NCBI GenBank assembly: GCA_030679145.1
Contig: JAUXTU010000118.1
Span: 1 to 64,000 of the forward strand
Length of the DNA stretch: 64,000 nt
Direction: 5' to 3'
Source: Bacteroidota bacterium
GTDB lineage: Bacteria > Bacteroidota > Ignavibacteria > UBA10030 > UBA8401
Made by a program: the position numbers and the translations under genes. Each line of letters opens with the position of its first letter. Positions within the stretch are counted from its first letter, which is position 1. Under the pieces are notes generated by a model. It worked only from the letters and a program-made list of their open reading frames with translations. It ran no database searches and was not told the DNA's origin. Positions 10,684-46,300 of the stretch are shown here, in pieces.

Positions 10684-11433
10684 TCAGTGCACTTGAATGA
10701 ACCACTCCGCAACCAAACAGCGATGGACTGTTGCTTTGATATCTTCACTTGAAACAGAAGTGCTTGCGTTCCGGTGTGAAACTTTCCATCGGACAAAAGA
10801 GGGGAGGATTTTATAGATGGATGTTAATAATTCGTTGATGGAATGAATTCCGGATGTTGATTGGATATCAACCGTTTCATCCCAGAATGAAATAATATGG
10901 TATTCGCGTTGTTTCCGTAAAAGGATAAGATCAATGAATCCTTTATGAGTCTTATATTTTGGATGAATATCGGCAGAAAAGATGTTTTCGAACGTTTGGA
11001 TCTGATCTTCTTGGACTGATAATGTAAGAATTTGAACTGCAAATGGATTTGTTTTCAGTTTACTGATAGTCTCTGAGCCGGCAACGGAATTGTTGAACCG
11101 TTCGATTGTTGGTTCAACCTGAATAGGAGTATATTCAAGAGAAAGGTCCTCTGATAATTTCAATTCGTATTCGTTCGATTCAACAAAGAACGGCCGCAGC
11201 ACATTCACCAATTGAAGATATAATCCACTTTCCTCATAGTCGAATGATTCTTTTTGCGAATTCCAGATCGTGAGGGACGTGCCTTGCTCCAAATTCTCCG
11301 TATTTTGAAGGAGCGATGCGAATACACACCCCTTAGTGGTTCGTAAAGCGGATAACACTGAGCGGTCGTATGCCTCGGCGAATTTCATTGTTTCTTCGCT
11401 TCGTATCGTATGGGTCACCATTCTCAAAAACAT
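10684..11433 (-). CDS. Tandem ABM-like (dimeric alpha/beta barrel) domain protein
   Basis: A protein of about 249 residues made of two segments, each resembling the antibiotic-biosynthesis-monooxygenase (ABM) fold. The first starts at the N-terminus (MFLRMVTHTIRSEETMKFAE ... GCVFASLLQNTEN ... SLTIWNS). The second begins near residue 135 (FAVQILTLSVQEDQIQTFE ... HKGFIDLILLRKQ ... YHIISFWD). The beta-alpha-beta spacing and the FW/IW near the end of each segment fit the family. No catalytic residues can be assigned, and many such domains are not enzymes. I start it at the second ATG because GGAGG lies five bases upstream; the ATG at 11445 would overlap that site. It sits 47 bases after the PP2C phosphatase gene, so co-transcription is likely. 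Confidence 0.7.
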   Translation of the reverse strand: MFLRMVTHTIRSEETMKFAEAYDRSVLSALRTTKGCVFASLLQNTENLEQGTSLTIWNSQKESFDYEESGLYLQLVNVLRPFFVESNEYELKLSEDLSLEYTPIQVEPTIERFNNSVAGSETISKLKTNPFAVQILTLSVQEDQIQTFENIFSADIHPKYKTHKGFIDLILLRKQREYHIISFWDETVDIQSTSGIHSINELLTSIYKILPSFVRWKVSHRNASTSVSSEDIKATVHRCLVAEWFIQVH

Positions 11434-11438
11434 TGGAT

Positions 11439-11443
11439 CCTCC
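11439..11443 (-). promoter_or_regulatory. Ribosome binding site deciding the start at 11433
   Basis: GGAGG on the minus strand, five bases before the ATG at 11433. The alternative ATG at 11445 overlaps this motif, which argues for the shorter protein. Confidence 0.65.
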
Positions 11444-11480
11444 ATTGGATTGTTGGCAGTAGAGTGGATCGGAATTATCT

Positions 11481-12779
11481 TTACTCTACCCGTTTGATTA
11501 CCATAATAGTAATATCATCCGATTGCGGATGAGCACCGGCATGTTTTCGTACTTCTTTTACAATAATATCAATGATCTCTTCTGCTGATTTCGCCTTGTG
11601 TTCAAGAAGAAGTGACTGTAAACGTTCTTCACCAAATTGTTCATTGGAACTGTTCATCGCCTCGCTAACACCATCGGATTGGATCACTAAAATATCTCCG
11701 ATGTAGATCGGAACTTCTTCATCCTCATAATTTGATTGTGGAATAAGCCCGATCATCAGTCCGCCGGTTTTTAATCGTTGGATTTCATTGCCGTTACGGA
11801 TCAAGAACGGCCAATCGTGACCAGCATTTGAATAATGGATGGAATGAAGTTTAATATCGATCATTCCATAAAATAATGTTGCAAATTTTTCCGGGCTGGT
11901 GCTTTCATACAATAATTTATTGGATCGGAGAAGACATTCGGAAGGCTGTTGTGAGACTAATGTTTGACCTCGCAGTGTTGCTTGAAGATTTGCCATCAGC
12001 AGTGATGCGGGAAGTCCTTTGCCGGACACATCGCCAAGACAGAGCGCCATTCTTCCATCACTCATCGGAATAAAATCAAAATAATCACCGCCAATGGATT
12101 GGGCCGCAATCGTACGCGCAAAGATATCATAACCGTGAAGACCGGGATTGCTTCGCGGTAAGAGGTCCATTTGAATTTTCGCCGCAAGACCAACCTCCTG
12201 CTGCATTTTAATGTACAATTTTTCCTCTTCAATCAAGCGTGCATTTTCTACAACTTGTGCAGACTGCGCAGAAATGATTGCAAGCAAGCGTTGATCCTCA
12301 GTATTGAACGACTGTCCGTCTTTCTTATTATAGACAGTAAGCACTCCGCGTAATTCGGATTTCACAATCAGCGGAACGCATAACAATGTTTTGATATTGG
12401 TATCCCACTGAACTCCTCTAAACCGCGCATCGTTTCCCGGATCTTCAACACTCAACGGTTTTTTATTCAAATGCATCCAGCCGATCAATGCTTGATGCAT
12501 GTGAAATGCCGGTGCTCCTGCAGAACTCACCATCGTGCGGATCAATGTCTTCATCGATTTTTGTTCTTCTTCCACCAATGTGATCACACCTTGTTCAGCG
12601 TTCACTGCACGAATAGATTTTCTGATCAACGTTTGCATGATCTCTTCCGCATTCAACGATGCACTGATTGCTCTCGCAATATCATTGAGAATGGAAAGTT
12701 CTTCGACTGCACGACGCAGTCTTCGTACTTCATCTTGTAGCGAATCTGCAGATTGCGGAGGTAGAGGCTTTTCGGTCAT
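11481..12779 (-). CDS. GAF-domain PP2C (SpoIIE/RsbU-type) serine phosphatase
   Basis: A phosphatase of about 432 residues. An N-terminal coiled-coil (LQDEVRRLRRAVEELSILND) is followed by a GAF domain (residues about 30-175; LIGWMHLNKKPLSVEDPG, TLLCVPLIVKSELRGVLTVY) and a metal-dependent PP2C domain of the SpoIIE/RsbU type. The metal-binding motifs GGDYFDFIPM and LCLGDVSGKGLPASLLMA are intact, as are IQSDGVSEA and SDDITIMVI near the end. Family members dephosphorylate STAS-domain anti-anti-sigma factors or reverse Ser/Thr kinases. A STAS protein is encoded divergently 158 bases away, which fits the first role, and the kinase array downstream fits the second. An in-frame ATG ten codons upstream (12809) exists; neither start has a convincing ribosome binding site. 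Confidence 0.9.
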   Translation of the reverse strand: MTEKPLPPQSADSLQDEVRRLRRAVEELSILNDIARAISASLNAEEIMQTLIRKSIRAVNAEQGVITLVEEEQKSMKTLIRTMVSSAGAPAFHMHQALIGWMHLNKKPLSVEDPGNDARFRGVQWDTNIKTLLCVPLIVKSELRGVLTVYNKKDGQSFNTEDQRLLAIISAQSAQVVENARLIEEEKLYIKMQQEVGLAAKIQMDLLPRSNPGLHGYDIFARTIAAQSIGGDYFDFIPMSDGRMALCLGDVSGKGLPASLLMANLQATLRGQTLVSQQPSECLLRSNKLLYESTSPEKFATLFYGMIDIKLHSIHYSNAGHDWPFLIRNGNEIQRLKTGGLMIGLIPQSNYEDEEVPIYIGDILVIQSDGVSEAMNSSNEQFGEERLQSLLLEHKAKSAEEIIDIIVKEVRKHAGAHPQSDDITIMVIKRVE

Positions 12780-12937
12780 AAGGATTATCAAAGTAATTAA
12801 TGTGTGCAAAAATAACGTTTATACAATTACAATCAAAGACAAATCGGTCTGAATTATTACTTTTGCTTTCTCATTTAGTTTGAATATCTTAGCATTGAAT
12901 AAACTGTTGAAATATTCCACAAACTTATGGAGGAAAA

Positions 12938-13285
12938 ATGAGCATCAAATCATCAACAATGGACGATGGAAATGTAGTAATTCTCGAACCGAAAGGATCG
13001 TTGATCGGTGGCAATGAAACGGATGAGTTAAAAAGCGCCGTTAATTCTTTGTTGGAAAAAGGAAACAAAAAACTGATCGTCGATCTAGCAGATGTTTCTT
13101 ACCTTAATTCGTCGGCAATTGGGATATTGACCGTTGCGCATAATTCCTACCAAAAGAATCAAGGGAAATTGATATTGTGCAACCTGAACAAAAATATTTC
13201 AAATATTTTTCTTGTAACAAAACTGTCGACAATTTTTTTGTCTGAAGATAAACGAGAAGATGCAATCTTTGCTATTGGAAAATAA
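12938..13285 (+). CDS. STAS-domain anti-anti-sigma factor
   Basis: A 115-residue single STAS domain. The signature DLADVSYLNSSAIGILTVAH carries the serine that anti-sigma kinases phosphorylate (the Ser-Ser after Asn). The rest follows the family pattern: VVILEPKGSLIGGNE at the N-terminus and a C-terminal helix after LSTIFLSEDKREDAIFAI. GGAGG at 12929-12933 gives a strong ribosome binding site. It is one of only two plus-strand coding genes and is divergent from the GAF-PP2C phosphatase, with which it would form the phosphatase/antagonist half of a partner-switching module. The matching serine kinase (RsbW-like) and sigma factor are not in the window. Confidence 0.93.
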   Translation: MSIKSSTMDDGNVVILEPKGSLIGGNETDELKSAVNSLLEKGNKKLIVDLADVSYLNSSAIGILTVAHNSYQKNQGKLILCNLNKNISNIFLVTKLSTIFLSEDKREDAIFAIGK

Positions 13286-13329: not shown

Positions 13330-15966
13330 CTATTTTTCTTTGGAAAATTCAGGGTAATGTTCCTTCCTGCAATCAGGGCAAATACTATGGGAGAATTGAG
13401 CATCGGAATGCTTGGAAACATAGGCTTCTACCTGCTCCCAGTACCCTTTATCATCCCTGATCTTTTTACAGTGGGCGCAGATTGGCACAATACCTTTTAA
13501 CGTCTTAATTTGTTCAAGAGATGTTTGCAGTTCCGTTATCATCACATCCCGTTCTTTTTCTGTCCGCTTGCGCTCCGAGATATCGCGCCATATAGTATAG
13601 AGAAACTGTTTGCCCTTTAATTGAATTGGTGTCAACATAACTTCAACCGGAAGGTCACTTCCGTCTGATGTTGTATGTATCCACTCAAAACGATTATACC
13701 CTTCCGCAATTGCTTTGTTAATCATCATCTGTGCTTTTTCTGAAGAGAGCATTCCATCGGGTTGTCGTTCCGGAGAGAGTTCCCACGGTTTTTTATTAAG
13801 AAATTCCTCCTTAGATGAATATTTGAGAATAGAAACTGTTGACGGATTACAGTTAGTAAAACCGGATTCATTAAGAAGCAAAATTGGATCAGCCGATTCT
13901 TGAAATAATCGGCGAAACATTTCTTCGCTCTCACGCAGTTCATCTTCAGCCCATTTGCGTTCTATTGACAAAGCAATTTGGCTTCCAACAGAATAGAGAA
14001 ATTGAACATCGCGTTCCGAATAGATATTTTCTTCTTCGTAGTGCTGCAATACCAAAACACCAATTATTCTTGAAGGGGTAAGCAACGGCACACCAATCCA
14101 CGAAGGTGAATTTGTGCCGATCAATTCCACTTCGTTTTGTTCAACAAGACGGTCAAATAATTCTTGTGTAAGAAGAAATGGTTTTCCGGTACGGTATACA
14201 TACGCTGTACAACTTTTATCCATTGCTACTGGGTCTGGCGTTGGATCGTGCTGATCTACAAAATATGGAAAACTAAACAGTCCAGTATTCTGATCATGTA
14301 GTGCGACGAAACAATTTTCCGCATACATTACTGTTTTGAGCGATTGATGTATTAACTTCAGTAGTTCATAAAGATTTGAAGTTGTCGATACACCCTGGGT
14401 AATCTCATGGACTGCTTGCTGTTCCAATTCCAACCATTTACGTTTGGTGATATCGTGGCTGATGCCGACGATGCCAATAGCTACACCTTGATCATCTAAC
14501 AATGGAAACTTACTCGTTAGATGCCATCGCTGTTCTTCTGAATCATGTTGAAAGTAAGGCTCCTCTTTATTTACTATCGGCATAGACGATTTAATAATTT
14601 CAATTTCATCGGCAAAGTACTGCGCTGCAATGTCGGGTGGATGGAAATCGAATATTGTTTTTCCTAAAACATCCTCCTGGCGTTTTACACCCATAGAATG
14701 CAAATGAGTACGATTATTCAGAATATAGTGTCCTTGGGTATCTTTATAAAAAATTTGATCAGGAAGGTTATCGATAACCGTCCGGAGCATTGTTCGTTCA
14801 GAATGAAATGCATCTTCCGCTTGCTTTCGTTCGGTAATATCGCGAAAACTCCAAACGCGACCGGTCACCACATTGCCTATCCGTTGGGGCTGAGAGTATC
14901 GCTCGAACGTTCGGCCATCCTTTAACTCCAGCACATCAAAACTGATTTCATCCGGTGCGCCGTATAGATCCATCACTTTTTTAAGGAAGATCTCCGGTTC
15001 TTTCAGTTGATCAAGCACGAAACCGAGTGCCGCATTATCGTCTTTGGTGGCGATAATTGCTTCTGGGATCTTCCACAGATCCTTGAATTTTTCGTTGAAC
15101 TGAATAATTCCACCTTTTCCATCCACAACCAGAATCCCATCGGCGGTAGACTCCATTGTAGACTTCAAAATGGACAGTGTTCGTACGAATGACTCTTCCG
15201 CCTTATTGCGTATAGAGATTTGTCGATTGACTCCCACAAAGGAAAAACCGAACATACACATGACAACGAAAATGAGCAATCCTAACGATCGAAGTAAATT
15301 CATCGAGCTTCGTGAATACATCTCTACATCTCTATTAGTCCGTTCCTGAAGCATAGCATAAAAATCATCGATGGGTGCCATGATGTTTGCTTTATTTTCG
15401 TGATAAGCCTCATCATTCATTAATCGTATTGCCATCGCGCGATCAGGTTGTTTCTTAACAGTAAAGTTGCCTGTACCATCATCAAATAATCCTTTAACAG
15501 CATTCATTGCAATCTTTTCTGTTCTTACCAATTCATCAGAATATTTCTGTCCCAAGGTTAGTTTTTCAAGCTCCGCATCGGTAATACCTGTCTTCACCAT
15601 CAAATCTTGGAGAGAGATGTTCTCTCCATCAGGCCGGGGTTTCTGATCCGCATCAGTGATTAAATCCCAGTAAATGCGATTGTAATTTACTGGACGAGGA
15701 ATTTTCCCGTTCCGAATACCTAGGACAGTCCAATACTGGCGTTCAAATTTCTCATTGCCGGTTGCCACGTAGGTTCTCGCCAAACGAGTGAGATCATCTG
15801 AACTCTGACGAAGTTCATCCGCCAGCTGATACGAATCGAAATGAAAGCGCTGGCTCCTGCTGAGGTCTCCTTGGTTCAGAAACAAAAGGATGGTTAGAAT
15901 CACCAAACCAATACCCAATGCAATTTGGATTCCAAGATGAAATTGAAATAGTTTTTTTAACGACAT
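13330..15966 (-). CDS. Membrane PAS/GAF sensor protein with C-terminal CxxC...CxxC module, no kinase domain
   Basis: A sensor of about 878 residues. A first transmembrane helix (about residues 11-31), a mainly helical extracytoplasmic part of about 190 residues and a second helix (about 224-245) are followed by PAS (about 265-385), PAS (390-510), GAF (520-665) and PAS (675-795). PAS ends are marked by RDITERKQAE, HDITKRK and RDISERK. There is no histidine phosphotransfer H-box, ATPase, GGDEF or EAL. The C-terminus is the conserved module GIVPICAHCKKIRDDKGYW ... SHSICPDCRKEHYP, two CxxC pairs that could bind a metal. Output is unknown; it may hand a signal to the hybrid kinases next door. A GTG start at 15984 would add six residues. 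Confidence 0.88.
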   Translation of the reverse strand: MSLKKLFQFHLGIQIALGIGLVILTILLFLNQGDLSRSQRFHFDSYQLADELRQSSDDLTRLARTYVATGNEKFERQYWTVLGIRNGKIPRPVNYNRIYWDLITDADQKPRPDGENISLQDLMVKTGITDAELEKLTLGQKYSDELVRTEKIAMNAVKGLFDDGTGNFTVKKQPDRAMAIRLMNDEAYHENKANIMAPIDDFYAMLQERTNRDVEMYSRSSMNLLRSLGLLIFVVMCMFGFSFVGVNRQISIRNKAEESFVRTLSILKSTMESTADGILVVDGKGGIIQFNEKFKDLWKIPEAIIATKDDNAALGFVLDQLKEPEIFLKKVMDLYGAPDEISFDVLELKDGRTFERYSQPQRIGNVVTGRVWSFRDITERKQAEDAFHSERTMLRTVIDNLPDQIFYKDTQGHYILNNRTHLHSMGVKRQEDVLGKTIFDFHPPDIAAQYFADEIEIIKSSMPIVNKEEPYFQHDSEEQRWHLTSKFPLLDDQGVAIGIVGISHDITKRKWLELEQQAVHEITQGVSTTSNLYELLKLIHQSLKTVMYAENCFVALHDQNTGLFSFPYFVDQHDPTPDPVAMDKSCTAYVYRTGKPFLLTQELFDRLVEQNEVELIGTNSPSWIGVPLLTPSRIIGVLVLQHYEEENIYSERDVQFLYSVGSQIALSIERKWAEDELRESEEMFRRLFQESADPILLLNESGFTNCNPSTVSILKYSSKEEFLNKKPWELSPERQPDGMLSSEKAQMMINKAIAEGYNRFEWIHTTSDGSDLPVEVMLTPIQLKGKQFLYTIWRDISERKRTEKERDVMITELQTSLEQIKTLKGIVPICAHCKKIRDDKGYWEQVEAYVSKHSDAQFSHSICPDCRKEHYPEFSKEK

Positions 15967-16206
15967 ATTAATCTTTTTGGACACTGATGTGATATAATTA
16001 GTAAATTAAACAGCAGTCATTGTGAACATTTATTATTGTATTACCAGAGCAGTTATCACTCTTTAGTTCGATCGTTATGCCATAACAAAACGCTGACATA
16101 CTCGATATTTCTGCAATTCATTAAATTTTCATTTTTACAATTCTACTATTGACAGAGTAATTGGTCTTCTCGTTCTTACGATATTCACGTTAGATGAGGT
16201 ATATAA

Positions 16207-16393: not shown

Positions 16394-17506
16394 TCAATTA
16401 TTCAACGCTTTTGGTAAAGAGACGATAACAGTGGTTCCATTTTTTTCTACACTTTCAATAAAAAGACTCCCGCCGTACAATTCCGCAATCGTTTTTGCAA
16501 TCGTCAACCCTAATCCTGATTCCTGCTGTCGAAATGGTCGTTCTTCGTTTTGCAACAACGATTGTATTGTATCGATCTCTTGTTTCGACATTCCGCACCC
16601 TTCATCGCGGATCGTCAGGAGCACTTCTTTTTGCGTTTCTACGGAAGAAAGAGTGATGTTACTGCCGGGTTCAGAAAACTTGCATGCATTGTCAATAAGT
16701 TCATCAATAACTTTTCCGAAATCTGCGGGAGATATTTGAAGAGAAGCATCGGTGCATGTGATCGAGAATGATTCACTTCGACCGTTTGCACGCATGTTCT
16801 CTGTAACAATGGACTGAAGCACAGAAAGATATGATTCTGTAGTTTCCTGCCGCAATGATGCAATTTTTTCTTGATCCTTTACCCATAACTGTAGCATAGA
16901 ATAGTAAAGGATATTTTCATGTAAATGACTGAGCCGTTTTCCGGATGCAGTGATCATCGTTGCAGCTCTGTGAATTGTATCGGAAGAACCATCGGTAACG
17001 GTAAGCAGAGATTGAGCATGGTCAAGAATATCCATCACCAAAATTTGCAGTTCGTTTGAAAGCAGCAAAATAAAACCTGTTTGTGTCCGTTCAATTGTCG
17101 ATTCGATAAACTTATGCCACAACTGTTTTTTTCTCAGTCTGGTTTCAATGGCACTAACAAGATCTTCTATGGAAAACGGTTTCGTAAGATAGTCGTCTGC
17201 TCCAAGATCCATTCCTTTACGAAGATCAAATTGCGCTACGTTCACACCGGTCATAAAAACAAAAGGGATCTTGCTCAATGCAGGTTCCTTTTTAACGGCA
17301 TTCAGTAATTCATATCCATTCATCGAAGGCATTTGAATATCGCATAAGATCAGATCCGGATGTTCCGATTTGGCAAAAGCCAATCCTTGTGATCCATTTC
17401 CTGCTAAAATTGTACTATAACCGGCATCCGTGAGAATATCATCAATTGCATTTCGCAGATCTTTTTCATCGTCAACAACCAAAATCTTTTGTTTATGCTC
17501 ATTCAT
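16394..17506 (-). CDS. REC-HATPase hybrid protein with degenerate H-box (His replaced by Asn)
   Basis: A 370-residue protein: receiver domain (residues about 6-122, acidic pocket DDE, phosphoacceptor Asp56 in LILCDIQMP, TKP lysine), a helical DHp-like region (about 135-215) and a complete ATPase domain (N-box DELIDNACKFSE, G1 DEGCGMS, G2 SGLGLTIAKTIAELYGG). It aligns without gaps to the paralogue at 18195-19331, where the H-box reads SLPHEFRTPLNSIL. Here the same place reads LLSNELQILVMDIL, so the autophosphorylated His is Asn151 and the following Pro is lost. Nucleotides AAC confirm Asn. It may be a regulatory pseudokinase or may phosphorylate a DHp in another protein; a DHp-only protein is encoded directly upstream. 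Confidence 0.9.
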   Translation of the reverse strand: MNEHKQKILVVDDEKDLRNAIDDILTDAGYSTILAGNGSQGLAFAKSEHPDLILCDIQMPSMNGYELLNAVKKEPALSKIPFVFMTGVNVAQFDLRKGMDLGADDYLTKPFSIEDLVSAIETRLRKKQLWHKFIESTIERTQTGFILLLSNELQILVMDILDHAQSLLTVTDGSSDTIHRAATMITASGKRLSHLHENILYYSMLQLWVKDQEKIASLRQETTESYLSVLQSIVTENMRANGRSESFSITCTDASLQISPADFGKVIDELIDNACKFSEPGSNITLSSVETQKEVLLTIRDEGCGMSKQEIDTIQSLLQNEERPFRQQESGLGLTIAKTIAELYGGSLFIESVEKNGTTVIVSLPKALNN

Positions 17507-17596
17507 ACAACACCTTTTTTATTATAATTAGTAATCATATTTTTTTCTGTTCATCGTAGACAATCACTTCCAAAACTTTGCAAGGATTTCATCAGA

Positions 17597-18154
17597 TTAG
17601 TTCCCTTTTGCAGGAACCGCCATCGCGCCCATTGTTTTACCGATTTGTTCTGTTTCATAGTACTGTGTTTCACTAAAATCCTTCAGTACTTGGGTGATTC
17701 GTTTCGATTCTTCTTCTATCGAATTGATCTGTGCAAACATATCATGGGAAATCGGCAGCAACTGTTTGATTTTATGCACCCTCAGCATAATAATGGCAAG
17801 CGGATTGTTGATTTGATGCTGCATACCTAATACCATCTCTCGTATGGTATTTATTTGCGTTTCTTTAATTTCCAAATCTTGTTCATTCACAATTCTTTTT
17901 GTTTCACTTTCGTGAAGCTGTGTATTAATCTGTATCACTTTCACTAACATCATTGCCAACATCCACATGAATGGCAGCGCATCGAACATTTCAAGGACGG
18001 TATAAAAATCCACCGTTGATGTTTTTGCAACAACGAAAAATCTGATCATCACAATGAATAGATACAAGTAGATGATATATCCGGAAAGGACCGCCGGATA
18101 TTTTGCCGGCAGATCTTTAAGACCTCGGAAGATTGTAACGATTGTGTTCATCAT
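17597..18154 (-). CDS. Two-helix membrane protein with DHp (H-box) segment but no ATPase domain
   Basis: A 185-residue protein with two predicted transmembrane helices (about 22-43 and 55-74), a coiled-coil linker and an H-box, MVLGMQHQINNPLAIIML, with His113 in the place where histidine kinases are phosphorylated. Such HEINNPL-type boxes normally lead into a catalytic ATPase domain, but here the protein ends about 70 residues later with no N, G1 or G2 box and no frameshifted remainder downstream. It therefore looks like a free dimerisation/phosphotransfer unit. It lies between a full REC-DHp-CA kinase (18195) and the REC-CA protein lacking its own His (16394), which makes trans-phosphorylation a reasonable guess. 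Start could also be the second ATG. Confidence 0.8.
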   Translation of the reverse strand: MMNTIVTIFRGLKDLPAKYPAVLSGYIIYLYLFIVMIRFFVVAKTSTVDFYTVLEMFDALPFMWMLAMMLVKVIQINTQLHESETKRIVNEQDLEIKETQINTIREMVLGMQHQINNPLAIIMLRVHKIKQLLPISHDMFAQINSIEEESKRITQVLKDFSETQYYETEQIGKTMGAMAVPAKGN

Positions 18155-18194
18155 AAAGCCGCTCTCCGATACAATGATGATTTTTTTTCGATCA

Positions 18195-19331
18195 TCATTC
18201 CTCTTTTAATTTTGGTAAACGCACTATAACCGTAGTGCCTTGCTTATCTATGCTTTCAATAGAAAGATTCCCGCCGTGAAGTTCTGCAAGTGTTTTTACG
18301 ATCACCAATCCAAGACCTGCTCCTTGCTGCTCGTAATAACCCCGTTCAAACTGCTGGAATGCTGAGATTCTATGGATCTGTTCTTCAGACATCCCGCGCC
18401 CTTCATCTCGTATGATAATGTGTACTTCGGATCCAATTGCTTCACTTGAAATATGCACGGTTGTTCCTGCTTCTGAAAATTTTAACGCATTGTCAATGAT
18501 CTCTTCCATGATCTTTGTCAGGTATATTGATGACATTTGAATAAAAACATTTTTGACAGAAAGGAGTATTGCATCAGCACGTTCATGCATCGACATTTGC
18601 TTTTGTGCAACTGTGTGAATGATGTCCTCTACCATTGTTACAGATTCATGACGTAATATTTCGATCTTCTCCCGATCATTCATGATAAGTTGTAATTGTC
18701 CAAACAAAACAATATTCTCCAATAAATGATGAAGCCGCAAGCCGGATTTATGAATCATTTCCCCTGCCTCTTGGACTTCATCGGGTGGAAGATTATTTTC
18801 TTCCATAAGAATTTGTGAAAATCCAAGTATCGAGTTCAGCGGAGTGCGGAATTCATGTGGAAGAGAATGCAGGATGCTTGTTTTGATATCCTCAAATTGT
18901 GAACTATAATATTTTTGCAATTTCTGTTTTTTATTCAAACGGGTCTTTACCGCCGAAAGAAGTTCTTCGGTACTAAATGGTTTGGTAAGATAGTCATCCG
19001 CCCCAAGCTGCATCCCTTTTCGCATATCGCCCGGAGCAGTGTTTCCGGTCAAAAAAATGAACGGGATCCCGGCAAATTCGGGATCTTCTTTCAGCGTACT
19101 CAGTAACGTATTACCATCCATCTTCGGCATATTGACATCACAGAGAATAAGATCAGGATTATACATTTTTGCGGCTGCCAAACCGTCTAATCCATTTTTT
19201 GCATTGAACACTTCGTACCCTGAAAATTGCAGTGCCATTGTTATGATATCGCGGTAGTTCTCTTCGTCATCAATAATGAGAATTTTTTGCGGTCCAACGA
19301 AAAATTCCGAGTTTATCCTTTCCATGTCCAT
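18195..19331 (-). CDS. Hybrid response regulator-histidine kinase (REC-HisKA-HATPase)
   Basis: A 378-residue soluble protein: receiver domain (phosphoacceptor Asp65 in LILCDVNMP, LTKP lysine), DHp with intact H-box (His159 in LPHEFRTPLNSILGF) and ATPase domain (N-box EEIIDNALKFSE, G1 DEGRGMS, G2 GAGLGLVIVKTLAELHGG). The receiver at the N-terminus suggests that phosphorylation by an upstream kinase controls the attached kinase activity. The 10-PAS hybrid encoded just before it (32-base gap) is a likely donor. AAAGGA about nine bases before the ATG supports the start; a second ATG lies two codons in. It is a paralogue of 16394-17506. Confidence 0.92.
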   Translation of the reverse strand: MDMERINSEFFVGPQKILIIDDEENYRDIITMALQFSGYEVFNAKNGLDGLAAAKMYNPDLILCDVNMPKMDGNTLLSTLKEDPEFAGIPFIFLTGNTAPGDMRKGMQLGADDYLTKPFSTEELLSAVKTRLNKKQKLQKYYSSQFEDIKTSILHSLPHEFRTPLNSILGFSQILMEENNLPPDEVQEAGEMIHKSGLRLHHLLENIVLFGQLQLIMNDREKIEILRHESVTMVEDIIHTVAQKQMSMHERADAILLSVKNVFIQMSSIYLTKIMEEIIDNALKFSEAGTTVHISSEAIGSEVHIIIRDEGRGMSEEQIHRISAFQQFERGYYEQQGAGLGLVIVKTLAELHGGNLSIESIDKQGTTVIVRLPKLKEE

Positions 19332-19363: not shown

Positions 19364-22300
19364 CTATTTTGCAATGTTAACATTTTTTATTGCGTCCATT
19401 AATTCCTTACCGGTAAAAGGTTTGTGTAAGAAATAATCAAAGAATTTATCTGCATTGTCATCAGTTGATTCCGGCATTAGTCCGCTCATACCGATGATCT
19501 TGATCGAAGGATTGATCTTTCTGATCGCAGCACTGGCAGTTTTTCCATCCATTACCGGCATCATAATATCGATCAATACTACTTCGATTTTTGCTTTACT
19601 TTGAATGAACTTTGATATTCCTTCCGTTCCGTTGTTCGCTGTAATGACTTCATAGTTGTAAAAACGAAGGGTTTCCTCGCACACCGATCGGATCGAAAGT
19701 TCATCATCCACGACAAGAATGGTCTCGCTATTCCCCTGTGGAATGTTCCTTTCGGGAGGAACATCGGTCATCGCTCCGGATTCCGATGACGCAGGTAGAT
19801 ATATCTGAAAACTTGTTCCTTCACCCACATTCGAATCCAATAGGATAAATCCGTGATGTGTTTTAACAATACTATAGACCGTGGAAAGACCAAGTCCTGT
19901 TCCTTTTCCTATATCCTTTGTTGTAAAGAATGGATCGAATATTTTTTGTTGAATATCCAACGGAATTCCCGATCCTGTATCCCGAACTTCGATCACAAGA
20001 TACCTCCCTTTTTTTGCATCGGGATGACGGGATAGTAATACTTCGTCAATATCCACATTTTTTACATTGATAGAGAGACGCCCGCCGTGCGGCATGGAAT
20101 CGCGAGCATTCACGCAGAGGTTCATCACTACCTGTTGGATCTGCGTTGGATCCGCATTGATAGTCCACAGATCTTTTGGTGCATAACAGTGAATGCCAAT
20201 ATTCCTTTGGAATGTTTGTTTGATAACATCTTCAACTTCATTAACTATATGTCGGACTTGCATTAAGACCGGTTTGCTTTCAGCGCCACGCGCAAATCCC
20301 AACACTTGAGCAACAATATTTTTTCCCCGTATGGTGGATGATTCGATTGTGTTAATAAGATTTTGCAATGTCTCATCCTGTACTTTCATCCTCAAAACCT
20401 GGACTGAAAGCAAGATAGGTCCCAGAATATTATTCAAATCGTGTGCGATACCGCCGGCAAGCGTGCCGATACTTTCCATGCGTTGTGAACGCATAAATTG
20501 CTCTTCAAGTTTTTTCTTTTCGGTAATATCAGTATTAATGGAAAGGATGGATTTTGGATTCCCCTTGGTATCATGAATGATACTTAATCGAACATCAACC
20601 GCAATTTCATTTTTATCTTTTGTTTTATTGGTAACTTCCCCCATAAAAATACCCTCTTTAAATAATTGAATATAGACTTCGGCAGGTATTATTTTATCGG
20701 TAAACAGTAGTTCTTGTGCATCTTTGCCCAATACTTCGCCGGCACTCCATCCATACATACGTTCAGCTCCCTTATTCCAATACAATATGCGATGGTCCAA
20801 ATCTCGTAAGATAATGGCATCGTGTGCTTCATTAAGCAATAATGCCTGTTGTTCTATTTGTTCAAAGGATTTTTGTCGATCCGTGACATCTTGTTTTATT
20901 GCAACAAAATGAGTTATAGCATTTTGTGCATCTCGCACGGGAGTGATGGTCATTTCATCATTGTACAGTGTTCCGTCTTTCCGTTTATTAACAAACTCAC
21001 CTCTCCATGCTTTCCCCGTCAGAATTGTCTCCCACATATTCTTATAAATTTCTTCCGATTGTTTGCCGGATTTTAAGAGTTTTGGATTTTTTCCTTTGAC
21101 CTCTTGCAGTGTATAACCGGTCATAGAAGTAAAAGCATTATTCACCCAAACGATCGCACCGTCAATATTCGTGATCACAATTCCATTTGCTGCTGTTTCA
21201 AATGCGGTCAAGAATAATAATTGCAGTTCCTCGATCTTTTTCCGTTCAGTGATATCCTCTGCAACACCGATGAGAGCGATACTCTCTCCTTGTTCGTTTC
21301 GAATAGCGGAGGTGGAAAGATCGATAAAAAATTCTTCACCGTTCTTTTTACGATTTAAGAGTTCGCCGCGCCAATTTCCTTGTTTGGTATGCTCCAGAAT
21401 ACCGGAAACCACAACCGGATCGTTCTTAGGAGAGCTCAGTATTGAAATATGCTTGCCTATAACTTCATCAGCCTTGTACCCATACTTTGTGCAGAACGCA
21501 TCATTCACAAAAGTAATCATATCATTCAGATCGGTAATGCTTACACATTCAGTAATGCTGCGAAGCGCATGGGCAAGCATGGAAATTTGTTCTTCAGATT
21601 TTCTCCGTCCGGTGATATCCCTAATAATTCCTGTATAATATTTCACGGAAGATAATTCCCATTCCGCTAACGATAATTCTATAGGGAATTCTTTCCCGCT
21701 CTTATGTAATCCAAATAGTTCTATCGTCCGCCCGATCACATGACGTTCCCCGTGTTGTTTCATTCGGTTCAAACCGATCCGGTGTTCATCAAGATACCGA
21801 AGTGGAATTATTTTTTCCAACGTTGTTCCCAGTACTTCTGCTTCTGTATATCCGAATATTTTTTTTGCCGCAGGGTTCCACTGTAATATTATTCCATTTT
21901 CATCGCCTGTGATAACAGCGTCATTTGCAGACTGTGTGACAGACCGGAATCGAAATTCACTTTCGCGCAACCTGATCTCTGCCTGCTTACTTTCGGTAAC
22001 ATCTCTATTACTAACGCGCCTGCCAATATAATTATGATGTTCATCAAAGATCGGTCTGCATATATGACTAATATTTACAATTGAACCATTCTTGGTAATT
22101 ATTCTGAATTCCGCTTCACTCGATTGTTCTTTATGTTCAACTAAATGAACTTTCCTAAAATGTTCCGCCATAGAAGCAGCATCATCGGGATGTATTATTT
22201 TTTCTACTAATAGAGGATCTGAAATAAATTCATTTTGGGTATAACCGGTTATTATTTCACAAGAAGGAGAGATATATACAATTTGTTTATGTTCGTTTTT

Positions 22301-24784
22301 CAAGTATTCCCAATCATGCGTATAATCTGCAAGGGTACGGAATTTTTGTTCGCTTAAACGTAAAACTTCTTCTGCTTTCTTGCGCTCGCTGATATCCCGT
22401 TGAATTCCAAGAAATCCAATGATACTTCCTGCTTCATCAAACATCGGACTTGCAGATCCGTCAATATTAATAAGCTTTCCATCTTTGCTCTTATTAATTA
22501 GTTCTGTCTTTACTTCATTTCCATTCAATAAGGTCTTCCAAAAGCCATCGTAGATTTGTGGTTCTAACAATCCACTTTTAAGAATACGCGGGGTTACTTT
22601 GCCAACAACATCGACCGCAGCATAGCCGTATAGGTTTGTGAATCCTGGATTGATGAATGTAAAAATGCCAGTTTTGTCTGTAAGAAATATTGCTTCGCTG
22701 GAATTGTTTACGGCTTTGCTTAATTTTAAGAATGCATCCTCTGTCTGTTTGCGTTCGGTGATATTTTCACAAGTGATGAATACCGATACTTTCCCCTCCG
22801 AGGAGGTCATCGCACGAGCTTTTTCACTCACCCACAAAATGGTCCCATCCTTACGAACTTTGCGTAGCTCCCAAGAATGTTCCATACCGATATTTTCCAA
22901 ACATTGCTTTACCTGTGCTTGAGCGGCTGATTGTTGGTCGGAAGGGAATACTTTTAGAACTGATCCTCCAATCAATTCTTCAGGTGAATAACCAAGGTGG
23001 TTGGCGCCATATTTGTTTACGGAAAGAACGAGACCTTCTATATCTATGGTAAAGAACATTAAGGGTGTACTGTCATACAAGTTGCGATAACGTTCTCCAC
23101 TCAGAATCATCGCTTTCTCCGCTTGCTTGCGCTCAGTGATGTTACTGGAAATTGCCAATTGAACCGTTTTACCAAAATAGTTTTCCAATGGAGTAGCATG
23201 GGTTTCCATCGTTTGGATATTCCCTTTAAGACTTACTATTCGAAATTCTAAAGTTCCACTCTTTCCCGCACACACGCTTTTATTGAAATTTATGAACGAT
23301 GTTCTATCATTTTCATCGATGAGATCATAAAGTGATTTTCCTATCACTTCCTCTTCCGAATCAGCACCAATCATTTTCATTCCCGCCGCATTCATAAACA
23401 ATAACTTTCCGTCGGAATCTACAAGTTTAATGCACTCAGTCCCTGTATTTATAATGTTTTGTAAAAATAAGGTGCTCTGCTTCAATTCTTGTTCAGCACG
23501 CTTGCGTTCGGTGATGTCGCGGAAAATGCTTAGAAGTAACTGCTTGTCGCCATTAGTTTCAAGAAATGCATTCGACATTTCCACATTCAATAGGTTCCCG
23601 GATCGCAGCTTCAATTCCGCTTCCATTTTTGGAACGATTGTTCTTGTGGAGAATCTTTCCTTATAATGTTGTATCGCTGTTTGATCCTCTTCATCAGAAG
23701 ATAAGTATACGATGTTTATCGACTGCCCCTCAATTGCCTCCTTCTTCGCTCCGACTAATTTACAATAAGCATCGTTTACTGCAATAATTGTTCCTTTATT
23801 GTCAGTGATTCGCATTCCATCAACGGAGTTTTCCCAGACGGATCGGAACCTTTCTTCGCTGGCTTTCAACGCTTCTTCCGCTTGCTTGCGTTCGGTGATG
23901 TCTCGAACGGTGATCTGGACAGCATTTTCTTTGTCATAAATAACCGGTATTGCTTTTACTTCAACATCAACGACAGAGCCGTCCAATCGTAAAAATTTTT
24001 CTTCTGCCGTTGGCAATGATTTTCTCAATGTCATTGTTTCCATCATCCTCTTTGCAACTAACTCTTTAGAATCAGGATGTACAAAGTCAATGACAGATCT
24101 TCCGATCAAATCATCAACGTTTGATGCTCTCATAAGTGTTACGCTTGATTGATTGGCAAAGACAATTTTCCCTTTGCTATAAATAGCAATAGCATCCGGC
24201 GAACCTTCCACAAGCAAGCGGTACTTTTGTTCACTCTCGCTTAGATTCTCTTCGATTTTTTGCCTGGTTTCATTTTCATTTCTTAAATCTTCAAGAAGAT
24301 TTAATGTGGCTGTGTGAGTTGCAGTAAGATCACGGGTTTGTTCTTTAATCAATCTGTCGAGTTTTTCGCTTTCCTCGCGCTTCCCGATATTGGCGTTTTT
24401 AATTTTTATCATTGCCCGAATCTGGGCGAATAGTTCCATTGGCTCAATGGGTCTGGCTAGGAATGCCTCCGCGCCGGCTTCCAAAGCACGCAAACAATTT
24501 TTCTTATCTCGTTTAAACGAAGTAACAATAATGATCGGAATATCGCTCAGTGTTTTATCGGCTTTAAGCGTTTGACACACTTCAAAACCATCCATATCGG
24601 GCATAACAAGATCGAGCAATATAACATCCGGGTTTTCGGCAGCTGCTAGTTTAAGTCCACTTTTTCCATCCGGCGCAGTCAATGTTATAGCTTCAGGAAA
24701 TGCATCTTTTATCATCAATTTCAGAATGACCAAATTGTCATTGGTGTCATCAATGGCCAGTATTTTAATTTTTCCATTTTTCAT
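19364..24784 (-). CDS. Very large hybrid histidine kinase: REC, ten PAS domains, HisKA, HATPase, REC
   Basis: About 1806 residues with no transmembrane helix, so cytoplasmic. The N-terminal receiver (about 5-120; VILLDLVMPDMDG) is followed by a coiled coil and ten consecutive PAS units of about 120-130 residues, each ending in a DITERK-like motif (RDITERKQAE, NITERKQTE, RDISERKKAE, RDVTESKQAE, RDITGRRKSE and so on). The DHp carries GTLAGGIAHDLNNILGP, the ATPase NLCVNARDSMPHGG, DTGSGI and GTGLGLSTVY, and a C-terminal receiver VVLIDIMMPVMDG. Both receivers keep their Asp, so a multistep phosphorelay is expected. An upstream TTG (24796) adds four codons, but the ATG has GGGAT in front. It is the first gene of a four-gene signalling run. 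Confidence 0.93.
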   Translation of the reverse strand: MKNGKIKILAIDDTNDNLVILKLMIKDAFPEAITLTAPDGKSGLKLAAAENPDVILLDLVMPDMDGFEVCQTLKADKTLSDIPIIIVTSFKRDKKNCLRALEAGAEAFLARPIEPMELFAQIRAMIKIKNANIGKREESEKLDRLIKEQTRDLTATHTATLNLLEDLRNENETRQKIEENLSESEQKYRLLVEGSPDAIAIYSKGKIVFANQSSVTLMRASNVDDLIGRSVIDFVHPDSKELVAKRMMETMTLRKSLPTAEEKFLRLDGSVVDVEVKAIPVIYDKENAVQITVRDITERKQAEEALKASEERFRSVWENSVDGMRITDNKGTIIAVNDAYCKLVGAKKEAIEGQSINIVYLSSDEEDQTAIQHYKERFSTRTIVPKMEAELKLRSGNLLNVEMSNAFLETNGDKQLLLSIFRDITERKRAEQELKQSTLFLQNIINTGTECIKLVDSDGKLLFMNAAGMKMIGADSEEEVIGKSLYDLIDENDRTSFINFNKSVCAGKSGTLEFRIVSLKGNIQTMETHATPLENYFGKTVQLAISSNITERKQAEKAMILSGERYRNLYDSTPLMFFTIDIEGLVLSVNKYGANHLGYSPEELIGGSVLKVFPSDQQSAAQAQVKQCLENIGMEHSWELRKVRKDGTILWVSEKARAMTSSEGKVSVFITCENITERKQTEDAFLKLSKAVNNSSEAIFLTDKTGIFTFINPGFTNLYGYAAVDVVGKVTPRILKSGLLEPQIYDGFWKTLLNGNEVKTELINKSKDGKLINIDGSASPMFDEAGSIIGFLGIQRDISERKKAEEVLRLSEQKFRTLADYTHDWEYLKNEHKQIVYISPSCEIITGYTQNEFISDPLLVEKIIHPDDAASMAEHFRKVHLVEHKEQSSEAEFRIITKNGSIVNISHICRPIFDEHHNYIGRRVSNRDVTESKQAEIRLRESEFRFRSVTQSANDAVITGDENGIILQWNPAAKKIFGYTEAEVLGTTLEKIIPLRYLDEHRIGLNRMKQHGERHVIGRTIELFGLHKSGKEFPIELSLAEWELSSVKYYTGIIRDITGRRKSEEQISMLAHALRSITECVSITDLNDMITFVNDAFCTKYGYKADEVIGKHISILSSPKNDPVVVSGILEHTKQGNWRGELLNRKKNGEEFFIDLSTSAIRNEQGESIALIGVAEDITERKKIEELQLLFLTAFETAANGIVITNIDGAIVWVNNAFTSMTGYTLQEVKGKNPKLLKSGKQSEEIYKNMWETILTGKAWRGEFVNKRKDGTLYNDEMTITPVRDAQNAITHFVAIKQDVTDRQKSFEQIEQQALLLNEAHDAIILRDLDHRILYWNKGAERMYGWSAGEVLGKDAQELLFTDKIIPAEVYIQLFKEGIFMGEVTNKTKDKNEIAVDVRLSIIHDTKGNPKSILSINTDITEKKKLEEQFMRSQRMESIGTLAGGIAHDLNNILGPILLSVQVLRMKVQDETLQNLINTIESSTIRGKNIVAQVLGFARGAESKPVLMQVRHIVNEVEDVIKQTFQRNIGIHCYAPKDLWTINADPTQIQQVVMNLCVNARDSMPHGGRLSINVKNVDIDEVLLSRHPDAKKGRYLVIEVRDTGSGIPLDIQQKIFDPFFTTKDIGKGTGLGLSTVYSIVKTHHGFILLDSNVGEGTSFQIYLPASSESGAMTDVPPERNIPQGNSETILVVDDELSIRSVCEETLRFYNYEVITANNGTEGISKFIQSKAKIEVVLIDIMMPVMDGKTASAAIRKINPSIKIIGMSGLMPESTDDNADKFFDYFLHKPFTGKELMDAIKNVNIAK

Positions 24785-24818
24785 AACATATCCCAATGTA
24801 TTTGTGCTCGTTGTTGAA

Positions 24819-40390: not shown

Positions 40391-43300
40391 TTATTTAATC
40401 AGAACAAGTTTTTTTACAAATTTGTGTTCTTTTTCCAAAGCGTTCACTTCTTTCATACGTATTACAGCATAATAGACACCGGAAGAATATCGGCTGGCGT
40501 TCCACACAATCTCCTGATATTGTGCGTCCATTTGATGTTCAAATATTGTAGCGATTCGTTGTCCAATCACGTTGTATATTTCAATCGAAACATCGCTCGT
40601 TTTAGGGACACCAAATCGTATTGTTGTTGTCGGATTAAATGGGTTTGGATAATTTTGATAAACAATATATTCAGTTGGAACCAATAATTTCCACGCTGCT
40701 ACACCCAACACTTTTTCAGATGTTATAAAAGAGATTGTATCATTCGCTAGTGTAGTAAATTTTCCATCAGTTACAGAAATTGTCCAATAATATCGAGAGG
40801 ATGTTTTGAATAATTTCATGATCTTACCAGCAAAGATTGTATCGGTCAAATTGTTCAGAATAGTATCTACTGCAGCGCCCCAGATATGAAGTGTATATTG
40901 CAATGTATCTTCATAATCCCCGTCTGATGATCTATTCCATAAAAAATTAAGATCTTTATTCCAATCCAATGCAATAGTATCTGTTTGCGATTGTTTATAC
41001 AGGGTAAAGCTAACCGGTTGATGATATGTTGGAGTAATTGTAAGATTCCATTGCTGAGTCACTGTACTCCCTTTTGAATCGGTAACCTTTAATGAGATTA
41101 CTGTATCCCCGACATTATCATATTGTGGGACCCCTCGAAGTGTATCACTACTAAATTTCAGCCAACTCGGAAGTGAAATGAATTCAATAACAAGAGAGTC
41201 TCTTCCATATTCCGCATCACTGTCATACGGATGAAATGCATAGCGATATTCAAATTCTTCGGAGGTGGTAGTATCAGCTGAAGATAAAATAATAGGAGCG
41301 TGGTTTACGTTAGTTACGTTCAACAAAAACGATTGAATGGACTCTCCCGATTTATTGTCCACAACTTTTAAAGTTACGATTGTATCAACGGCATTCTTTC
41401 CTTGAGGTATTCCATAAACTGTATTGCTGTCTTCATTAAAATGTAACCACGATGGCAAAACAACAGGAGTTACAGTTAATGAATCAGCAAAATTCTTTGA
41501 ATCTCTGTCGAATACATTGATTGAATAAATATAATTTGAATCTTCAATCGCATTGATAATTGGTACAGAAGTAAATATCGGTGCGTGATTTGTATGATGT
41601 ACATACAGCGTATATTGTTGAAGAGCAATTCCGTTCTTATCATCTGAGGCTTTAATGCTCATTGGGAAAGAGCGATATTCTAATGTATCAGATACATTGA
41701 GAACAGTCTCCTCTTTTTTTCTACCCTCTGTAAACTTTTCAAAATCTTCATCTGAGTGGAGTAAGAATTTATGATTTTTCCTAAGTGATATTATTTCTTT
41801 CTTTTCTGGCATAACTATTCCAGATAGACTATCGACTAAAGATGGAATTCCAGATATCAAACCAGTCAATGAATCAATCAACAAAAATGGAGGAGCTTGA
41901 ACAAAGGTAAATAAAACTTTATCTCCAAATAATAGTGAATCCTGATCTAGTGCCATTACCCTGTAGTTATAAACGCTATCTTCTTTCCCTATAGTATCGG
42001 GAACAGAAACAAAGACAGGCGAATGATTGATATGTTGCACTGTAAGAACAAATGTCTTGTTGATTGTTCCGCCCTTATTATCATACGCTTGAACAGTCAC
42101 CGTTGTATCTCGCACATTCAGCCCACTTGATGTTCCACTGAGTGTTCCGGTGATACTATCGATTGTCAGCCAGGTTGGTTTAATGACCAGTTTATATTTT
42201 ACTTGATCACCAAATAACAGGCTGTCCTGATCGCTGGCTCGGACTATTGTTGTATAAAGTGTATCTTCTATTGCATTTGGTAATATTGATGTTACAAAAA
42301 CTGGTAAATGATTTGTGTGTGTCACTGTAACATTAAAGCTCTGAAGTATTACTCCACCCTTTCCATCACGTACTCGCACTGTAACCGCCGTATCTCCTAC
42401 ATCTTTTCCTCGTGGAGTTCCGGTAATTAATCCTGTCGTGCTATCAATGCTCATCCATTGTGGACTAACACGAAGTCTATAATACAATGTATCATTAAAT
42501 AATAATTGATCCTGATCCGTTGCGATCACTTGATATGAATACAGACTATCTTCTGCAATTTGTTCAAGCGGGTTTGATGCAAATTCCGGTAGGTGATTGA
42601 TATGCTCTACCTTGAGTGTATACTGTTGTGTTGATATTCCTCCTTTATTATCAAACGTTTGAATTGCTACAATAGTATCTTGAGCGTGAATCAATGATGG
42701 TGTTCCACTGATAAGTCCTGTAATGCTGTCAATCGTCAACCACAGTGGCTTGACCAGTAGTTTATATCGGATGTAATCTCCAAATAACAAAGTATCCTGG
42801 TCTGTAGCATTTACTACATAGGTATAGAGTGAATCTTCAATCGCTGTTGTATCAGCAATGGACACAAATTGAGGCAAATGGTTGGTATGCGATACTTTCA
42901 CATTATAGCTTGCACTGGCGATTCCACCTTTTCCATCGGTTACTCTTACTGTAACAAGTGAGTCTGTACCAACATTTTTTCCACGTGGTGTTCCACTAAT
43001 AAGTCCTGTGCTGCTGACCGTTAACCAACTTGGCTTTTTAGTGAGTGTAAAAGTAAACACATCTCCTACGAGTGTGTCGGGATCTTCTACCTTAACCTGA
43101 TATCTATAGAGTGTATCTTCCTGCGCAGTGAATATTCCTGTAGAAACTATTTCCGGTATATGATTGACGTGGGTGATATGAAGCGTATATTGTTGAGTGG
43201 TTGTTCCTCCCGCATTGTCATATGCTTGTACTATAACAACTGTATCATATAAGTTTTGCACTTGTGGCGTACCGCTGATCGTTCCGTTGGTGCTGTCGAT

Positions 43301-46300
43301 GTTTAACCAGCTTGGCTTATTGATCAGTCTGTATCGGACGATATCTCCAAATAATATTGTATCGTTGTCTGTAGCTCTAGAAGTTTGTATATATATTTCA
43401 TCCTCTACAGTTACTGTATCTGGATTCCAGTTGACAAATGATGGAATGTGATTAATATGGTGAATAGTAAGTGGAAAATTCGATACCGTTACTCCTCCGT
43501 TATTGTCTGTTACATAAACCCTGTATGTTGTGTCTCCAACATTTTTTGCCGTTGGTAATCCGAAAACTCTCCCGGTCAATGAATCTATCGTCAACCAAGA
43601 AGGATGGATAAGTAATGAATATCGAATTCGATCTTCAAACAACGTAGTATCCGGATCGATAACATTGAACATAACTGAAAATAGTGAATCTTCGGTTGCG
43701 CTTGTCCTTGATTGTTGCGCAATAATACTATCTTGACCACTAAGAAGTGTATAAGCAAACTCCGGACTATGGTTTGTATGGTTTACTGCAAGTTGATAAC
43801 TATGATTCGTAAATCCACCCTTATCATCGTATACTTGAATGGTCACAGTCGTATCTTGCGCACTCAAGCCACTTGCGGTTCCACTGATTGTTCCTGTGAT
43901 ACTATCGATCGTCAACCACACTGGTTTGATAAGAAGTTTATACCGTATCAGATCTCCAAATAATGCACTGTCTTGATCGCTTGCTTGAACGATTGTGGTA
44001 TACAGCGAATCTTCTATTGCATCGGATAAGGTATTAGTTGAAATAATAGGATTGTGATTTGTGTGCTTTACAATTATTGGAAGAGTATGTTCGACAAATA
44101 ATCCATTATTGTCTTTTGCTCTGATGGTCAACAGCGTATCGCCCACATTTTTTGCGGAAGGAATACCTGAGAATATTCCGGTAAGAGTATCCAGAATCAT
44201 CCACGTTGGACCACGAATCAGTTGAAAATGTAACTGATCATTAAAGATCGTATCTTGATCAGTAAAAATCATCTTCCCAATATACAGTGAATCTTCATTT
44301 GCAATAGAATCAGGCGCAGAAACAAAGAGTGGCGGGTGATTGATATGTTCCACAGTGAGTGTGAATGAATGTGTCGAGACTCCACCCTTGTTGTCGTATG
44401 ATTGTACCGCAACAATTGTATCTCTCGCGTTCAAGCCGTTTGGCGTACCGGTAATGATACCAGTGACACTGTCGATTACAAGCCAGATTGGTTTAACAAT
44501 CAGTCGATATCGCACCACATCACCAAACAATGCCGAATCTTGATCACTACCTTTTACAGTATACGTGTAGAGTGAATCTTCCACTGCTGTTGTATCTGCG
44601 CTTGTTACAAACACTGGCGCATGATTTGTATGCGATATCGTCACTGAAAATGTCTGCAATATCAATCCTCCCTTACCATCCCTGACTCTCACAGTCACCA
44701 CAGTATCTCCAACATTTTTTCCTTTCGGTGTTCCGGTGATCAATCCGGTTGAACTGTCAATATCCATCCAACTTGGATGCACACTCAGTTTATAATGTAA
44801 TGTATCACCGAAGAGTTGCTGATCCGCATCCGTTGCCGTTACCTGATACGTGTAGAGTGAGTCTTCCCGTGCCGTCGTGATTGGTGTTGAAATAAACTCC
44901 GGTTCGTGATTGATATGTTCCACACGAAGTATAAACTGCTGCGTTGAAATTCCTCCCTTGTTATCGTACGACTGCACCGCAACAATTGTATCCAATACAT
45001 TTAGCCCGCTTGGAGTTCCGCGAATGGTTCCGGAGATACTATCAACGACAAGCCAACTCGGTTTTATGGAAAGTCTGTATCGGATATTATCTCCGAACAA
45101 CAGCGTATCCTGATCGTTTGCTTTTACATTGTATGTATAGAGTGAATCCTCCACCGCCGTTGTATCTGCCATCGTCACAAACTGAGGCGAGTGATTGGTA
45201 TGAGATACTTTGATCGCGTAACTCTGACTGGCAATACCTCCCTTACCATCGCTGACTCTCACAGTCACGATAGTATCTCCCACATTCTTTCCCAAAGGAA
45301 TACCGGAGACAAGACCACTGCTGTTGACACTGAGCCAACTCGGACGTTTGGTAAGTGTATATGTAATAACATCTCCAATGAGCGTGTCCGGATCTTCCAC
45401 AATAACCTTATATCTATAGAGTGAATCTTCCTGCACAGTGAAACTTCCTATCGATACGATCTCAGGAATATGATTGATGTGTGTGATATAAAGTTGGTAT
45501 TGCTGCTGCACCAATCCTCCCACATTATCGTACGCTTCTACTACGAACAGTGTATCATACAGATTCTGGACTCTCGGCGTACCGCTTATGACTCCTGTAA
45601 CGCTGTCAATACTTATCCAAGCTGGTTTATTGATCAATCTGTATCTAATAATATCACTAAATAACAATGTATCTTGGTCTGTTGCTTTTGTTTTGTAGCT
45701 ATACACATCATCTTCTATCGCCGTAGTATCTGCTACACTGGTAAAAATTGGTGTGTGATTCGTGTGAAGAATGTGTAGTGTAAAAGATTTTTGCACAACA
45801 CCACCGTTTTGATCATTCACCGATACTGTCAGTGTTGTATCACCAACACTGTATGGTTTTGGTATGCCTGAAAGTATTCCTGTAATTGAATCAATCGAGA
45901 GCCAGCTTGGTTTTATTGTAAGAAAATACCGTAGCTGATCTCCAAATAATAAACTGTCTACATCGCTCGCATACACTTTTGAAGTAAAAAGTGAATCTTC
46001 TTGTCCAAGTGTGTCGCTTAGTGTGGCAATGATTGGTGTATGATTGGTATGTTGAATTATTAACTTTGTTTCCTTAATAGAGGTTGTATTCCAACGATCT
46101 ACTGCTTTTACTACTAAAGAGGTATCTCCAACATTTTCACCTTTTGGAGTTCCATAAACTGTCTTTGCAATACTGTCGTAATGAAGCCAACTTGGAAGTT
46201 GAAGAATCGAAATAGAATACTGATCACCATCAACATCAGTTACAAAATTTGAAATATTAAACAAACTATCTTCTTTTAGCATCAGAATAGAGTCTAATAA

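Follow-up and report, generated by a model that had tools for sequence, protein, structure and literature searches.

What can a membrane protein that carries the DHp hairpin and H-box His of a histidine kinase do when it has no ATPase of its own, and when the gene that follows it encodes a kinase paralogue that has lost its phosphoacceptor His? The question arises from four genes, here called H, A, B and C, that follow one another in this order on the minus strand of the window (the whole 64,000-nucleotide stretch of DNA that was analysed), separated by intergenic gaps of 32, 40 and 90 bp (Table 1). An earlier note had read these genes as a 10-PAS kinase at the operon start (H), a complete REC-DHp-CA kinase (A), a two-helix membrane protein with an H box and no ATPase (B) and a REC-CA paralogue with Asn in place of the phosphoacceptor His (C), and had proposed that the ATPase of C phosphorylates His113 of B to give a split, receiver-gated kinase. 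Apart from the G2 box of C, the description of the genes has held up. The three consecutive open reading frames have the strand and lengths described, and in every orthologue comparison that gave estimates of both rates dN is roughly a tenth of dS, which places A, B and C under purifying selection and marks them as real genes. Residue checks and Pfam recover the REC, HisKA and HATPase_c domains of A together with its His159, as well as the H-box His of B in a protein without ATPase, while H has ten PAS_9 stretches flanked by an N-terminal and a C-terminal REC, along with HisKA and HATPase_c. Promoter and terminator scans returned signals near background.

Table 1. Genes, domains and key residues of the operon (window coordinates)
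Feature	Coordinates	Strand	Basis
H: multi-PAS hybrid kinase, REC - 10 PAS - HisKA - HATPase_c - REC	19364..24796	(-)	Pfam; operon's first gene
A: complete REC-DHp-CA kinase (REC + HisKA + HATPase_c), H box PHEFRTPL, His159	18195..19331	(-)	Pfam, alignment
A His159 codon	18855..18857	(-)	
B: two predicted membrane helices, long helix and DHp hairpin, without CA domain, 185 aa	17597..18154	(-)	
DHp region of B, residues 105-160, motif MQHQINNPLAII	17675..17842	(-)	Pfam HisKA 24.1 bits
B His113 codon, followed by Gln114 where HisKA kinases have Glu/Asp	17816..17818	(-)	
C: REC, degenerate DHp (Asn151, NELQILVMDIL) and CA	16394..17506	(-)	REC and HATPase_c matches, HisKA none
C Asn151 codon, phosphoacceptor His position	17054..17056	(-)	

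Other genes of the window are described here for completeness. At 13330-15984 lies a gene for a PAS-PAS-GAF-PAS protein that has no kinase domain and ends in a Cys-rich stretch (ICAHCKKIRDD...CPDCR); a gene with the same tail adjoins B in genome G017 (locus L108). The region 10684-13285 holds an ABM-domain gene and a GAF-SpoIIE phosphatase, with a STAS protein on the other strand, and these genes are likely a partner-switching set beside the operon. A single ORF of 2796 aa (40391-48781) ends in about 100 residues that resemble the C-termini of proteins encoded near B-like genes in G019 and G021, and this end is perhaps a sorting tail.

The Pfam HisKA profile (PF00512) scores B below its curated cut-off of 26.9 bits and thus short of formal membership; among the relatives of B, a paralogue at the tadA locus passes with 37.1 bits, and the forms with Asp at the His position score 15.5-16.4. 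An AF2 monomer model, built from 35 relatives, has a mean pLDDT of 76, a moderate confidence, and folds into helices at residues 20-45, 59-132 and 137-173. Its best Foldseek matches are all DHp domains (ERS1, 4mt8; CpxA; ZraS; GacS); their probabilities are near 1 (1.0 for ERS1), yet the E-values start at 0.08 (ERS1) and every one lies above 0.05, and we use the search only insofar as the top matches agree on DHp domains. H113, N116, N117, P118 and L119 are invariant across 35 His-form relatives. Judged by motif, family alignment and predicted fold, B is clearly homologous to HisKA DHp domains despite its sub-threshold score, and sequence, AF2 model and Foldseek matches all place its conserved His on a DHp-like hairpin of the monomer, as in the Spo0B/ChpT phosphotransferases. 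A truncated or decaying gene was rejected on the dN/dS values and on conservation across the family. A frameshifted piece of a full kinase was likewise rejected, with only 90 bp lying before C, no kinase-length remnant and relatives that are equally short.

B is a member of a conserved, uncharacterised Ignavibacteria family of membrane-anchored DHp proteins without ATPase. B-like proteins occur in 70 of the 98 genomes of the window's order (Ignavibacteria); outside the order, among 245 genomes sampled across the class, full-length members were found only in families f20 and f9, and the public contigs that match B are Ignavibacteria/Bacteroidota metagenome assemblies. Most members have 165-240 aa and share the membrane module and the DHp, without an ATPase. 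The window's genome carries a second B-like copy beside tadA (G000:C94; L036 5158-5775), an arrangement common in families f1 and f5. In many genomes this gene immediately precedes tadA, with prfA beyond it on the opposite strand, and it usually has no two-component genes nearby. In genome G002 (L013/L118), the membrane module of B, 56-59% identical to that of the window, is fused to a complete and unrelated DHp-CA kinase of 330 aa; it looks as though a full kinase had acquired the module by a swap. Neither NCBIfam nor Pfam has a family covering B or its Asp-form relatives, weak HisKA matches aside, and a literature search for these Ignavibacteria proteins found no paper. Holophagaceae/Geothrix proteins with weak HisKA matches were rejected as members, as none has the membrane module at an E-value of 1e-3. 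The one inspected, L152 (5216-7318, Geothrix rubra), is a long FHA-GAF-REC-like protein that ends in a DHp, LKHEINNPLAII, without ATPase; by its sequence it appears to be another ATPase-less DHp class in Holophagaceae.

The residue at the phosphoacceptor position divides the family. Across 87 distinct members it is His in 53, Asp in 30, Glu in 3 and Gln in 1; the His form is confined to families f1 and f5, and Asp forms are found in f1, f2, f4, f5, f6, f9 and f20. The rest of the motif is kept: N+3, N+4, P+5 and L+6 are present in 30/30 Asp forms and in essentially all 53 His forms, with members from f20 carrying Tyr at +3 and retaining N+4-P-L. Position H+4, where HisKA-type phosphatases have N or T, is Asn in all 30 Asp forms and in 52 of the 53 His forms, the remaining one having Thr. 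Position H+1 is far looser, with E18 Q18 H6 D4 R3 K2 S2 among the His forms; it is acidic in only 22/53, whereas E or D occupies it in 49/49 full kinases from the same loci that match the standard H box. Helix kinking and folding may by themselves be enough to explain why the NNPL residues are kept. A further paralogue in f6 (L219, L220 and L221) has Glu/Gln at the His site and Lys at H+4 (QESINKPIAV, QQSLDKPLAV), so that the supposed phosphatase Asn is lost there. In trees computed without the H-box columns, the His forms make up one clade on a single branch (SH-aLRT 100 in one tree, 99/95 support in another); these trees are unrooted, with the f20 outgroup on a very long branch, and because the root is not fixed, gain of the His cannot be told from its loss.

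How these residues are to be read follows from work on complete kinases. In HisKA kinases, autophosphorylation depends on the acid at H+1 and phosphatase activity does not, the phosphatase requires the N/T at H+4 that kinase activity can do without, and the His itself is largely dispensable for the phosphatase (PMC3510030). The half-life of CrdA~P is 53.5 min without CrdS, 0.7 min with the wild-type protein, 2.6 min with H371A and 47.6 min with N375A, and CrdS E372Q is kinase-dead and phosphatase-competent (PMC3510030). The H-Q-I-N-N of B would be the natural equivalent of this E372Q state, which speaks against a CA domain phosphorylating B and would fit a phosphatase or receiver-docking role. 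That a DHp alone can suffice is indicated by HK853-DHp, which is phosphatase-active in vitro in the absence of its CA domain (PMC5727384). CrdS E372Q/A, the kinase-minus, phosphatase-plus state matched by the H-Q-x-x-N motif of B, and HK853-DHp were made in the laboratory by mutating or truncating complete kinases, whereas B is a natural membrane-anchored protein.

The neighbours of B support a conserved two-component operon in which the multi-PAS hybrid kinase is joined by A, B and C. Hybrid kinase, A, B and C follow one another in G000 (the window's genome), G013 and G019, and in G021 they are divided across contigs; the same class of multi-PAS hybrid kinase is found directly upstream in G013, G019, G009, G016 and others. 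The earlier note had tied its proposal to the co-occurrence of B and C in relatives, and the two genes do occur together, in four genomes, but they are not obligate partners. C is found without B in G016 (kinase, A, C) and G020 (A, C and kinase, C), and B without C in G009 (kinase followed by B alone) and G017 (B and A on separate contigs). The completeness of G016, G020, G009 and G017 is 97, 82, 96 and 89%; in one of them the absence could be an assembly gap, in all of them it could not. Most B-bearing genomes among the order's 98 lack C, of which true orthologues exist in six genomes of the order and none elsewhere in it, compared with the 70 that have B-like genes.

Across the wider family, the recurring partners of B are receivers, whether stand-alone REC proteins, hybrid kinases or REC-kinases, and not His-less ATPases. 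In f5, an A-like kinase with intact His lies directly upstream of the B-like gene at L112, L113, L124 and L238, a REC gene follows it at L115 and L116, and the order hybrid kinase, B-like gene, stand-alone REC at L114 and L117 is that of a relay. In f2, the gene upstream of the Asp form encodes a stand-alone REC, and the two overlap by 4 bp in some cases (L201-L205). In f20, the Asp form adjoins a REC protein of 352-354 aa that has no H box, N box, G1 or G2 and retains an intact receiver acidic pocket. The genes for this dead-kinase REC protein and the Asp form are directly side by side in seven genomes (L268-L273, L275). A REC gene lies within 1 kb of about 35/96 members against ~7% expected from the REC density of the window's genome, counts that are not independent because the members share ancestry. 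Many members have no nearby REC gene, namely the tadA-linked His-form group and the Asp forms of f4 and f6.

C, a paralogue of A, is best read as a pseudokinase: its receiver is intact, while both its DHp and its ATP lid show decay. The Asn that the earlier note saw at the aligned His is present in all seven orthologues known from six genomes (the six others are 52-74% identical to the window copy), within a new conserved motif, NELxxLV(M/L)DIL(D/E)H(A/S)Q, which rules out a sequencing error, and Pfam finds no HisKA match in C. The H-box helix is 75% identical among C orthologues and only 23% identical to that of A (REC, 54%), and is therefore constrained to something new. From G1 to the ATP lid, on the other hand, identity is 40% within C versus 76% within A. 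The note had also described the N, G1 and G2 boxes as intact; the N box and G1 do fit this description. In G2, however, the initial Gly of GxGLG is replaced in 6/7 orthologues (ESGLGL in the window copy), and the F-box (QFxR) is gone. C shares with DivL-type pseudokinases a non-phosphorylatable residue fixed in place of the His. Caulobacter DivL, which has Tyr for His, binds DivK~P and needs no catalysis, acts together with a hybrid kinase and a receiver (PMC4211667). DivL keeps all of the N, G1, F and G2 motifs and a PAS input; C has an altered F-box and G2, an eroded lid and an N-terminal REC in place of PAS modules, and because of these differences DivL would be its nearest precedent in logic only.

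These observations bear most heavily on the split kinase of the earlier note, in which the CA domain of C (or of A) would phosphorylate His113 of B in trans, and which we now consider very unlikely. It can draw on the adjacency of B and C in four genomes, on the N box and G1 retained in C, and on precedents, in that the halves of EnvZ can work as separate polypeptides, 3.7% of HisKA proteins have no ATPase, and the His-bearing and ATPase-bearing parts of CheA3/CheA4 in Rhodobacter sphaeroides are separate gene products (PMC3591291). CheA, unlike B, has an HPt (P1) domain and is soluble and cluster-bound, and CheA3 is also a phosphatase of CheY6-P, which likens it to a phosphatase reading of B (PMC3591291). 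What sets B and C apart from that pair also weighs against phosphorylation in trans: the CA of C is eroded, without F-box and in most copies without the first G2 Gly; B has at H+1 the Gln that is kinase-dead in CrdS (PMC3510030); and the genes are not obligate partners, each occurring without the other and C in 6 genomes versus 70 for B-like genes. In addition, 30/87 family members have Asp for His, and no split kinase is possible in f20, because there the Asp-form protein recurrently pairs with a REC protein whose CA is dead.

A phosphotransferase is the alternative suggested by the His itself, whose strict conservation in the His form (53/53) is easier to reconcile with a phosphoacceptor than with a pure phosphatase. 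Here B would be a membrane-bound protein of the Spo0B/HmrB type that takes a phosphoryl group from the C-terminal REC of the hybrid kinase onto His113 and hands it on to a further REC, either that of A or C or a stand-alone one, with the Asp form as a separate, non-relay branch. Dimeric DHp-like helical hairpins without autokinase activity are phosphotransferases in Spo0B, ChpT and probably HmrB, the last encoded next to the hybrid kinase HmrA (PMC11481889, PMC3433190). B resembles them, with its dimer only presumed, and in the window operon it shares with HmrB a place beside a hybrid kinase; the gene order at L114 and L117 is that of a four-step relay, which lends some support to the small relay with the 10-PAS kinase suggested in the earlier note. 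None of the three is membrane-anchored as B is, and ChpT keeps a CA-like domain. Spo0B also keeps such a domain, and we know of no Asp-form branch for Spo0B, ChpT or HmrB. We regard the phosphotransferase as doubtful, as the other large branch has Asp for His and still has REC partners, many His forms (those at the tadA locus) have no REC neighbour, and the N+4 phosphatase residue is retained. B might also be a non-enzymatic docking or heterodimerisation module, either sensing REC phosphorylation in the manner of DivL or, like RetS/RocA, pairing with the DHp or membrane helices of a kinase. The Asp, Glu and Gln forms, the fusion of the same membrane module to a complete kinase in G002, and the precedents of DivL (PMC4211667) and of RocA, which binds CsrS via membrane helices (PMC6635533), are consistent with such a role. 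It is nonetheless quite unlikely, since the strict N+4 and the restriction of position 0 to H, D, E or Q suggest chemistry, and binding of the DivL type requires no such residues.

Because many family members have lost the His, B more likely acts on partner receivers than as half of a split kinase. The explanation that we favour, although as a whole it falls just short of an even balance, is that B docks receivers at the membrane, most likely as their phosphatase, and that C is a DivL-like pseudokinase. The DHp hairpin of B, a four-helix bundle when dimeric, would dock the receiver domains encoded around it, namely those of the hybrid kinase, A and C, and stand-alone RECs in other genomes. Most likely it would then dephosphorylate them as a kinase-minus, phosphatase-plus DHp gated by the membrane module, while C probably influences A or the hybrid kinase in the way that DivL modulates CckA. 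Of these parts, receiver docking is probable; phosphatase activity, derived from family rules, is plausible though not quite favoured. The f20 pair, in which both partners lack the kinase residues and the REC pocket is intact, counts for docking or phosphatase activity. More tentatively, the stand-alone membrane DHp proteins of Ignavibacteria could possibly be dedicated receiver phosphatases, a phosphotransfer fold turned into a separate enzyme class, with REC-pseudokinase partners in operons of the window type; the DxxxN of the Asp branch recalls the DxxxQ of CheZ.

About 4% of HisKA proteins are without an ATPase (PMC3591291), and the B family provides a natural test set for the role of such proteins. 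It has one architecture in two fixed states, His and Asp, with the kinase acid mostly gone and the phosphatase Asn retained, in the neighbourhood of receivers, hybrid kinases and pseudokinases, and could distinguish between split kinases, relay carriers and phosphatases as the role of DHp proteins that have no ATPase.
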